Shown here: in pieces, positions 57,045-63,852 of the stretch
Numbering within the stretch: the first letter of the stretch is position 1
Layout: every line of letters starts with the position of its first letter
Assembly: GCF_000021725.1 (NCBI RefSeq)
Contig: NC_012115.1
Span: forward strand, 1,441,408-1,505,407
Direction of reading: 5' to 3'
Length of the DNA stretch: 64,000 nt
From: Nautilia profundicola AmH
GTDB taxonomy: Bacteria; Campylobacterota; Campylobacteria; Campylobacterales; Nautiliaceae
Notes under the pieces: generated by a model
Databases searched by the model: none
Told to the model about the DNA's origin: nothing
What the model saw: only the letters and a program-made list of their open reading frames with translations
Position numbers and translations under genes: made by a program

Positions 57045-58061
57045 TTAATCCGTTATGTCTTCCCACCTTAACCTGTCGCCTTTTTTCAAATCCTTACACG
57101 CTTTTTTACCTAATATCTCAGGTAAATATTTAGGATGAAGTCCGTATCCCGGACGTATTGATTTTATATTTTCTTCACTAAACGTTTCACCTTTTTCGAT
57201 GTCTTTTACCACATACAGACTTCTTGCAAACTGACGCCCGCTTTTAGGTTTGAAATTAACTTCCCCCATCATCTCTTCCGTTTCTCTAACAGCCATAACC
57301 ATTTCTTTAAACTCATCAGGTGTTAAGCTGAAATCCTTATCGGGAGAATTTAAATTTTTATCAAGTATAAAATGCTTTTCAATAATCCTTGCCCCCATTG
57401 CTGCAGCCGCTACGGGAGCGGAAATTCCTAGCGTATGATCCGAAAAACCAACTTCTACATTAAATATCTCTTTAATAGCCGGAATTGTTTTTAAATTCAC
57501 TTCACTTCTTGGCGTGGGATATGCGGAAGTACACTTTAAAAGAGCCAATTCAACACCTCTTTTCTTACATATATCAGCCACATCCTGAATTTCCTGAAGT
57601 GTTGCCACCCCGGTTGAGATTATCATCGGCCTGCCTTTACTTGCGGCGTAATCTATCAAATCATAATCCGTAATCTCAAAAGAAGCTATTTTATATGCAG
57701 GAGGTTCAAACTGTTCTAAAAAATCCACGGCTTCCTTGCTAAATGGTGAACTGAAAACTTCAAGTTCCAAGCTCCTTGCGTAATCAAAAAGTTCTTTATG
57801 CCATTCAAGAGGTGTCATCGCTTTTTGATACAAATCGTATAAATACTCATCTTTCCACAAATCCCCAGCTTTAAATTCATCCCTGTCTATTTTTAAAGTC
57901 ATCCACTCCGGTGTGTAAGTTTGAAGTTTTATCGCATCAGCCCCGGATTCTTTTGCGGCGTATACCGTATCTTTTGCAGTTTTAAGACTGCCTGCATGAT
58001 TTGCGGAAAGCTCCGCTATTATAAAAACTTTTTTTGAAGTGTCAAAATTTCCTATTTGCAT
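57045..58061 (-). CDS. pseI: Pseudaminic acid synthase PseI
   Basis: Condenses 6-deoxy-AltdiNAc with PEP to give pseudaminic acid, the sugar placed on flagellin in Campylobacter and Helicobacter. The 338-residue protein has the NeuB TIM barrel (IAELSANHAG, IKLQTYTPEWMTL, IISTGVATLQEI, FSDHTLGI, EKHFILDKN) and a C-terminal antifreeze-like SAF domain (RSLYVVKDIEKGETFSEENIKSIRPG). The ATG overlaps the pseH stop as TAATG. Confidence 0.92.
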   Translation of the reverse strand: MQIGNFDTSKKVFIIAELSANHAGSLKTAKDTVYAAKESGADAIKLQTYTPEWMTLKIDRDEFKAGDLWKDEYLYDLYQKAMTPLEWHKELFDYARSLELEVFSSPFSKEAVDFLEQFEPPAYKIASFEITDYDLIDYAASKGRPMIISTGVATLQEIQDVADICKKRGVELALLKCTSAYPTPRSEVNLKTIPAIKEIFNVEVGFSDHTLGISAPVAAAAMGARIIEKHFILDKNLNSPDKDFSLTPDEFKEMVMAVRETEEMMGEVNFKPKSGRQFARSLYVVKDIEKGETFSEENIKSIRPGYGLHPKYLPEILGKKACKDLKKGDRLRWEDITD

Positions 58062-58588
58062 TATATTCCTTCACATAAAAACTGATATTTGATTTTTTGA
58101 GCCCTTTTGTAAATATCCAAATTCTTTTTTATATTTTTCCATTTCTCTTTTGTAAGTTTCATTTTATAAAATTTTTCATCTTCATCCACCACTTCCACTC
58201 CGAAATAACGGTTAAACTCCAAAGCCCTTTTATTTTCTTTAAGTACTTCGGAATTCAAAACATCAAACCTTTCAAACATATAATCTATAAAAAGATACAC
58301 CGCCGCAACCGAAACAAGAGGCATTGTTGTTTTAGAAAAAAATATTCCCCAGTTTTTTACGGTTTTATCATAAAAAGTGAAATTAACCCCGCCTTCAATA
58401 TTACCCTTTACAAACAAAGCCATATAACACCTGCTTTTATCCATATTTTGTACCCATTTCAAATGTTCTTCAATGGTTATAAGTTTATTATCTGATGAGG
58501 AATTTCTTACAAATTCAGAGTTTCTTATTTCAAGAATTTTTTTATGCTCATCAATATTCATAAGCCTGTAATCTTTAAATATCCACAT
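58061..58588 (-). CDS. pseH: PseH-like GNAT acetyltransferase
   Basis: N-acetylates the 4-amino group of the UDP-sugar in pseudaminic acid synthesis. The 175-residue protein is a GNAT with the PseH pattern (ILEIRNSEFVRNSSS, HLKWVQNM, EVLKENKRALEFNRYFG). I start at ATG 58588, with AGGA 6 bases upstream. Acyl donor choice is set by this enzyme, which is notable because the neighbouring acyl module could supply a non-acetyl group. Confidence 0.85.
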   Translation of the reverse strand: MWIFKDYRLMNIDEHKKILEIRNSEFVRNSSSDNKLITIEEHLKWVQNMDKSRCYMALFVKGNIEGGVNFTFYDKTVKNWGIFFSKTTMPLVSVAAVYLFIDYMFERFDVLNSEVLKENKRALEFNRYFGVEVVDEDEKFYKMKLTKEKWKNIKKNLDIYKRAQKIKYQFLCEGI

Positions 58589-62802: not shown

Positions 62803-63032
62803 TACTGCTCCAGGTATTTAGCTACAATCTCTTTTGCTTTTGCAAAAGAACTCATATCTATAATATCATCCGTATCAAGCATTATGTCAAACTCGTCTTC
62901 AATTGCGGCAACCAAAGTCATATGTGCCACACTGTCCCATTCGTCAATTGTGTTGTACTTTAAATCGTCAGTAACCTTTTTTTCCTCTATTCCGAGAGAC
63001 TCGGCAAATACTTTTTTTAATCTTTCTTCCAT
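62802..63032 (-). CDS. Acyl carrier protein
   Basis: A 76-residue ACP with the phosphopantetheine Ser34 in EWDSVAHM and a four-helix ACP pattern (IEDEFDIMLDTDDIIDMSS). It is distinct from a fatty-acid AcpP (EWDS instead of DSLD), as in dedicated ACPs of secondary pathways. The pseG frame runs over its first 65 bases. Confidence 0.88.
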   Translation of the reverse strand: MEERLKKVFAESLGIEEKKVTDDLKYNTIDEWDSVAHMTLVAAIEDEFDIMLDTDDIIDMSSFAKAKEIVAKYLEQ

Positions 63033-63852
63033 TAATATCCCTTTTTTTTAAGACTTTATATTTTTTACTTTTTAAATATTTTACTAAATTTTCCTGATTT
63101 TCGGCAACTTGCACGGCAATAAAACCAAGCCCCATGTAAATAGCCTCATAAGCAATGGTACTCGGTGTTATAACCCCGAATTTAGCCTTAGCCATCCCAA
63201 CTGCCACATCTTCATCGATATGAAGCCTACACCATCTGTTTAAAAAACAGAATTTTTTAAGTTTTTCCAAATGTTTATTGGCACTTGTAGTGTAAAAGTC
63301 GACTTTTAAACCGCAGTCTTTTAACTGTTTCAAAACCTTAAGCCCGATTCCCTTAGCATCAGTCCCACCGAAACTTATGAAAACTCCCTCTTTTTTATAA
63401 TATTTTTTCTTTGCTTTTATAAAATTTTCCCCCACAAGAGGCTTTATAACCTTGACCTTTTTAGGATCATCGTATTTATTAATATTTACACCTAAGTTAT
63501 GATTAATAATTTCATCACAACAATGTTTTTTATACATATCATCAAAACAGATAAGTTTAATATTCGGGAATAATTCTTTAAATTTCTTTTCATCTTCATA
63601 TGTAAAATTATAATTATCTACCACCACTTCTTTTGGTTTTAAACGTCTTACGACATCAAAAAACTCATTTTCGTTATTTATTTTAATTATCGGAATATCA
63701 GTATATTTTTGCTCACATTCCTTACATACTATAAAAACTTTTTTATCAATTTTCCATTTTCCATTTTCCATTTTCCATTCTAAAAAGGCTTCAAGCCTTT
63801 TTAAATGCCCAAACCCCGTTTTAGCAGAAAAATCGACTCTTAAAATTACTAT
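62968..63852 (-). CDS. pseG: PseG-like UDP-sugar hydrolase with ATA start, probable 3' frameshift
   Basis: Removes UDP from 6-deoxy-AltdiNAc before PseI. The frame is open from codon ATA 63850-63852, right after the stop of the cytidylyltransferase gene, with AAAGGA 6 bases upstream. This gives VILRVDFSAKTGFGHLKRL with the catalytic His16, as in Campylobacter PseG. No ATG, GTG or TTG lies before it; the first ATG (63771) is inside a heptad array and would remove the catalytic part. Residues 25-36 are repeat-encoded. At the 3' end an A8 run (63042-63049) precedes a basic tail overlapping the ACP gene; one more A would end the protein as KKKGY in TAATG with acp. Confidence 0.75.
   Translation of the reverse strand: MVILRVDFSAKTGFGHLKRLEAFLEWKMENGKWKIDKKVFIVCKECEQKYTDIPIIKINNENEFFDVVRRLKPKEVVVDNYNFTYEDEKKFKELFPNIKLICFDDMYKKHCCDEIINHNLGVNINKYDDPKKVKVIKPLVGENFIKAKKKYYKKEGVFISFGGTDAKGIGLKVLKQLKDCGLKVDFYTTSANKHLEKLKKFCFLNRWCRLHIDEDVAVGMAKAKFGVITPSTIAYEAIYMGLGFIAVQVAENQENLVKYLKSKKYKVLKKRDINGRKIKKSICRVSRNRGKKGY
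63042..63049 (-). repeat. Poly(A)8 tract in pseG (plus-strand T8)
   Basis: Eight A residues on the coding strand close to the pseG end. Frame length differs by one base between a long basic tail and a compact TAATG junction with acp. Confidence 0.7.
63746..63780. repeat. Heptanucleotide array inside pseG
   Basis: Five heptads on the plus strand: TCAATTT, TCCATTT three times, TCCATTC. On the minus strand it codes for residues 25-36 (E-W-K-M-E-N-G-K-W-K-I-D) between two conserved parts of PseG. Confidence 0.8.

Follow-up and report, generated by a model that had tools for sequence, protein, structure and literature searches.

Gene content of the locus

The window analyzed here is a 64,000-nucleotide stretch of the genome of the deep-sea bacterium Nautilia profundicola AmH, itself a single contig of 1,676,444 bases. 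Toward its end, the minus strand reads in the order pseG, acyl carrier protein (ACP), short-chain dehydrogenase (SDR), AMP ligase, LuxE-like, LuxC-like, PseH-like, and PseI (Table 1). Successive genes from ACP to PseI overlap by 1, 19, 17, 20, 17, and 1 bases, and the 3' end of pseG runs 65 bases into the ACP gene; both the coordinates and the Pfam matches bear out an earlier note on this DNA, which described the five genes between pseG and pseH as overlapping and unidirectional. The N-terminal GFGH motif of PseG lies within frame only with a non-standard ATA start near position 63852, and the pseG start codon of a congener (G002) is a GTG at the position of this ATA. The upstream part of the operon extends past the window end: tagD is joined there by two TarF/TarL-like genes, a TarI/TarJ-like fusion, and then pseF, pseC, and pseB, with a Maf gene in divergent orientation.

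Table 1. Features of the pseudaminic acid (Pse) operon segment within the window
Feature	Coordinates	Strand	Best-supporting match
pseI, pseudaminic acid synthase	57045..58061	-	TIGR03586, 499.8 bits (cut-off 340)
Divergent pseH, GNAT sugar N-acyltransferase	58061..58591	-	TIGR03585, 46.6 bits (below cut-off 93.1)
LuxC-like acyl reductase (acyl-thioester to aldehyde)	58575..59750	-	PF05893, 92.4 bits, 3.6e-26
LuxE-like acyl-protein synthetase (ATP activation of acid)	59731..60789	-	PF04443, 203 bits, 7.5e-60
AMP ligase	60773..62089	-	PF00501 AMP-binding, 3e-37
SDR (short-chain dehydrogenase)	62071..62802	-	adh_short_C2, 2e-61
ACP, S34 in DSV	62802..63032	-	PP-binding, 25.2 bits (cut-off 20.8), 2e-5
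pseG, start apparently ATA	62968..63852	-	TIGR03590, 109 bits
tagD, glycerol-3-phosphate cytidylyltransferase, runs past window end	63856..64000	-	TIGR01518, 181 bits (above cut-off)

Assignment to the pseudaminic acid pathway is clear for PseB, PseF, and PseI (550, 347, and 500 bits, all above cut-off), and PseC (378 bits; cut-off 423.5) and PseG (cut-off 153.6) are sub-threshold yet best matches. The adjoining acetyltransferase, which the earlier note had simply called pseH, is indeed PseH-like, but because it reaches only half of the score demanded by the PseH equivalog we refer to it as a divergent PseH—one that probably works like PseH though it falls outside the equivalog.

Catalytic residues were intact throughout the five-gene module, as previously claimed. 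The ACP serine (S34), the YxxxK motif of the SDR, and the P-loop and final lysine motif of the ligase are all kept; C229 of LuxC aligns with the cysteine of QQAC in the LuxC structure 7xc6_A, and the near-C-terminal cysteine of LuxE (in GCS) aligns to the KGC of 7xc6_E. This LuxE cysteine is C346 counted from the open reading frame start used here, and corresponds to the C344 given earlier, which was counted from the third codon. While both catalytic cysteines of the luminous fatty acid reductase are thus present and the two pairs are homologous, the Nautilia system differs in its added ligase and ACP, its sugar operon context, and its LuxC, a short protein that stands far from its luminous counterpart (profile score of 49.7 bits to 7xc6_A). 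LuxE scored 75 bits against the NCBIfam LuxE equivalog, below the cut-off of 550, and the SDR passed the cut-off of PRK07231 (231.8 bits) and fell below that of the FabG model. LuxE occurs once in the genome, at this locus. A second match to the LuxC profile (G000:C1:1461325) is probably an ordinary aldehyde-dehydrogenase relative, as the profile also matches E. coli and other controls. The reported absence of luxAB holds for the whole genome, where we found no luciferase-family gene (PF00296), and on this ground we reject a role for LuxC and LuxE in luminescence.

The extended locus also contains four CDP-polyol genes between pseG and pseF (L003:11264-15867, corresponding to window position 63856 onward, with tagD at 11264-11650). 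The TarF/TarL-like pair are polyol-phosphate transferases, and the TarI/TarJ-like gene is a ribitol-phosphate cytidylyltransferase/SDR fusion. Together these genes hint at polyol-phosphate on the flagellar glycan.

PseH in related genomes

Comparison with a congener represented by a complete genome (G001), which has neither LuxE nor the module, places the divergent PseH in evolutionary context. The site in this organism is flanked by the same genes and reads pseI-pseH-pseG-pseF-pseC-pseB, followed by Maf and a flagellin-like gene; none of the CDP-polyol genes, from tagD to the TarI/TarJ-like fusion, is found there. Its PseH is an ordinary one (115 bits to the PseH model, above cut-off). Identity between the two genomes is 85-89% for PseI, PseC, and PseB and 65-67% for PseG and PseF, and only 30% for PseH. 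Given an ordinary PseH at the syntenic site and this low identity, gain of the module probably came with an exchange of the ordinary pseH, as far as can be judged from gene order and sequence divergence. We found no second PseH in the Nautilia profundicola genome. Most Nautiliaceae with a PseH match have the canonical form, and the congener G002 carries the module with parts that are 91-99% identical.

A tree of 49 GNATs, the branches of which reflect related genomes, placed the module-associated PseH of Campylobacterota in one clade (support 100/99) and the canonical Campylobacterota PseH (18 rows) in a separate clade (96/93); across phyla, module-associated PseH were spread over several clades. 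The closest PseH from loci lacking the module belong to two other Campylobacterota (G028 and G046), and their neighbors are an ACP-like protein (scoring 19.7 and 16.9 bits, respectively, with an ACP model), an SDR, and an AMP ligase, without LuxE. Such gene sets suggest that ACP and ligase form a core, with LuxE and LuxC as an add-on changing the acid; in terms of gene content, at least, ACP and ligase look like the part that feeds PseH. In these two genomes, the ACP-like, SDR, and ligase genes lie 3' of pseH (L175:8527-11995 and L176:5904-8782), with two small additional open reading frames separating the ACP-like gene from the SDR in the former, and the combination is possibly a minimal acyl-supply set.

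We also compared an AlphaFold model of the window PseH (pLDDT 92) to known structures. The best PDB match was H. pylori PseH (4ri1; Z 20.0), and FdhC, solved as a 3-hydroxybutanoyl-sugar product complex, matched with Z 17.8 over a longer alignment of 160 residues. For a predicted fold, these matches alone do not separate acetyl donors from larger acyl donors.

Distribution of the module and its published relatives

We detected relatives of LuxE in 9 of 397 Campylobacterota and in 39 of 296 genomes from the order of Aeromonas, at least three of which score like true luminous LuxE. From the GTDB collection, which yielded more than 500 stretches with LuxE relatives, the best 80 were kept, a selection biased to the closest forms. 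Among the 90 loci surveyed, a ligase was present in 88, a separate LuxC gene in 86, an ACP in 77, and an SDR in 72. Recognizable glycan genes accompany the module in 72 of the 90, and the remainder includes several short contigs; the survey thus does not reflect the possibility, raised by the earlier note, that the module is common at a distance from sugar loci. The note also asked whether pseH and pseG always accompany the module: pseI and pseG were both present in just 20 of the 90 loci (with PseH in 19 of these 20), and the module therefore extends beyond Pse loci.

Where ACP, SDR, ligase, LuxE, and LuxC form a contiguous block (n = 29), a PseH or a PglD-like hexapeptide transferase directly adjoins the block in 20 cases, a count that is descriptive because many loci are related; one further block has a GNAT as neighbor (L055). 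Shuffling labels within loci (20,000 rounds) gave an expectation of 4.4 N-acyltransferase neighbors and a maximum of 12. Gene fusions join ligase to LuxE (L041, L157) or LuxE to LuxC (L035, L074, L099, L107, L150, L173).

Earlier publications describe the ordered block for Aeromonas and the gene set for enterobacterial islands. Group II flagellar islands of Aeromonas carry the block (pseH, orf1-3, luxE, luxC) in 98 strains, with the five gene families in the Nautilia order and adjoining pseH within a pse locus, although pseH precedes the ACP, pseF/pseG/pseI are on the opposite strand, and in most strains a glycosyltransferase, fgi-1, follows luxC (PMC7874193). We recovered this arrangement in L060, L080, and L085, and likewise in L108, where the SDR is not separated. 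The same genes—luxC, luxE, fadD, fabG, and acpP—occur in enterobacterial flagellar islands (PMC4875605), and a Dickeya island shares this set, differing in the addition of tktA/tktB, a vioA/maa context, and the absence of pse genes from the published list (PMC7575072). Nautilia resembles the Aeromonas and enterobacterial islands in that contiguous acp, SDR, AMP ligase, luxE, and luxC genes lie beside a sugar N-acyltransferase.

A second relative is the tetronate gene set rfbKLMNO (wbe) of V. cholerae O1, for which the cited papers describe an amino sugar that bears a small dihydroxyacyl group (PMC4772473, PMC12208996, PMC3441752); deletion of wbeL leads to loss of the O1 antigen (PMC3441752). 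The set shares with Nautilia an ACP, an AMP ligase, an alcohol dehydrogenase, and LuxE/LuxC, whereas the acylated sugar is perosamine rather than a product of the Pse pathway. We made the rfbKLMN-type comparison on a locus from the Aeromonas order (L173), which encodes in a row an ACP, a ligase of 473 aa (compared with 471 aa for V. cholerae WbeL), an Fe-dependent alcohol dehydrogenase, and an 825-aa LuxE-LuxC fusion. Nautilia has all of these domains, differing in its separate LuxE and LuxC and in having an SDR instead of the Fe-dependent enzyme. The V. cholerae O1 acyltransferase, RfbO, differs in fold from the Nautilia PseH.

A proposed hydroxyacyl supply route for PseH

Mass data from Aeromonas bear on the product. 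The flagellin of A. piscicola AH-3, which has the same block, carries a Pse derivative of 376.14 Da within a glycan that also includes an unexplained 102-Da unit, and in an fgi-1 mutant the distal sugars and the 102-Da unit are gone and the 376-Da Pse remains (PMC7874193). Starting from a Pse5Ac7Ac residue of 316.127, we computed 376.148 Da for replacement of one acetyl by C4H6O3, compared with 360.153 Da for 3-hydroxybutanoyl, 400.221 Da for octanoyl, and 484.3 Da for myristoyl forms. The observed mass supports dihydroxybutanoyl and does not prove it, because O-methylglyceroyl is isobaric; the 102-Da unit is C4H6O3 too, which may be coincidence. Our literature search found no paper on 4-hydroxybutanoyl or dihydroxybutanoyl Pse.

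We propose, with somewhat better than even confidence, that the module supplies the divergent PseH with hydroxyacyl-ACP, such that a small hydroxyacyl or dihydroxyacyl group replaces one acetyl of Pse. We infer the sequence in which the reactions occur, the role of ACP as donor, the transfer, and the identity of the acid. LuxE would use ATP to activate a carboxylic acid, which may be malate or another dicarboxylate; LuxC would reduce the activated acid to an aldehyde with NAD(P)H; and the SDR would convert this aldehyde to an alcohol, as the Fe-dependent alcohol dehydrogenase would in the rfb type. The AMP ligase would then load the resulting hydroxy acid (e.g., 2,4-dihydroxybutyrate) onto ACP, from which PseH would transfer the acyl group to the 4-amino group of UDP-4-amino-4,6-dideoxy-AltNAc, the future N7 of pseudaminic acid. 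Flagellin would thereby come to bear Pse with a small (di)hydroxyacyl group in place of one acetyl. An activated acyl or aldehyde group added to Pse had been suggested earlier; the pseH swap and the AH-3 mass favor the non-acetyl acyl part of this suggestion, and the aldehyde fits better as an intermediate than as the attached group.

Several lines of evidence lead us to this reading: the replacement of pseH at a site syntenic with that of the congener, the position of the module-associated PseH clade outside the canonical one, the N-acyltransferases adjoining most contiguous blocks, the parts of V. cholerae O1 rfbKLMN held together in L173, the mass of AH-3 Pse beside the same block, and the occurrence of ligase-LuxE and LuxE-LuxC fusions. 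The fusions, along with the exchange of the SDR for an unrelated alcohol dehydrogenase in the rfb type, fit a single path. On the other side, two adenylating enzymes in a single path need explaining, the FabG-like SDR could act on 3-oxoacyl-ACP instead, module PseH falls in several clades and both the tree and the neighbor tests retain relatedness, and the many modules with transketolase halves or NeuB-like enzymes must differ in their products.

The resemblance of the SDR to FabG underlies an alternative in which ligase, ACP, and SDR make 3-hydroxybutyryl-ACP for PseH and LuxE and LuxC serve some other step. The close structural match to FdhC and the ACP-SDR-ligase sets without LuxE are in its favor, but it predicts the 3-hydroxybutanoyl mass in AH-3 rather than that observed and leaves the tightly linked LuxE and LuxC idle, and we consider it unlikely. 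Quite unlikely, too, is that the module acts on another residue of the flagellar glycan (for example a terminal acyl group or the polyol-phosphate part encoded by adjacent genes), with the divergent PseH working as an ordinary acetyltransferase: CDP-glycerol- and CDP-ribitol-type genes in the same operon and the 102-Da unit in AH-3 are compatible with this, yet the fgi-1 mutant drops that unit and retains the 376-Da Pse, and PseH was replaced jointly with the module. A fatty-acid route, in which LuxE and LuxC yield a fatty aldehyde or fatty acyl group for a lipid-bearing sugar, follows from annotation by analogy with luminous bacteria and has been suggested as a "liposugar" for the enterobacterial and Aeromonas islands (PMC4875605, PMC7874193), the genes in the latter being labeled "fatty acid" genes. 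For AH-3 it is ruled out by the mass, which matches neither octanoyl nor myristoyl; for Nautilia, with its short, distant LuxC and its lack of luxAB, we regard it as very improbable. We think that the "fatty acid" or "liposugar" label of the Aeromonas and enterobacterial genes, under which the Dickeya genes have also been annotated, is wrong. Least credible of all is an aldehyde end product condensed into a sugar or chain by a NeuB-like enzyme or transketolase, since, despite NeuB-like, acetolactate-synthase-like, and split transketolase genes inside the module elsewhere, the Nautilia module has no such extra enzyme, its PseI scores as a true pseudaminic acid synthase, and ligase and ACP would be left without a role.

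More tentatively, and with some doubt that it will hold, LuxE-LuxC may be a widely used means of turning acid into aldehyde in the making of acyl groups for bacterial glycans, spread across phyla and combined with exchangeable tailoring enzymes (SDR, Fe-dependent alcohol dehydrogenase, split transketolase, acetolactate-synthase-like, NeuB-like) to give many hydroxyacyl-ACPs for sugar N-acyltransferases. If so, the LuxC and LuxE of light organs would be one specialized branch. Linking the Aeromonas, enterobacterial, and Dickeya genes to the tetronate pathway, PseH replacement, and the 376-Da Pse leads to a concrete, checkable product, and would account for the role of LuxC and LuxE relatives in hundreds of non-luminous bacteria.

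Module composition varied among the surveyed loci. A split transketolase, with N-half and C-half genes, lies beside the SDR in 28 of the 90 (L049, L061, L069, L093, L103, and others), which on gene content suggests C-C extension of the aldehyde, and some of these variants have a thioesterase between ligase and LuxE. Elsewhere, FabZ-like, acetolactate-synthase-like, and NeuB-like genes accompany ligase, LuxE, and LuxC (L023, L027, L028, L038, L046, L059, L068, L107), in some cases also with a metallo-hydrolase. Transketolase, thioesterase, lactate-dehydrogenase-like, and NeuB-like variants together imply that products differ between loci. One near mirror-image contig (L075), probably an assembly artifact, carries the gene set twice in opposite directions.
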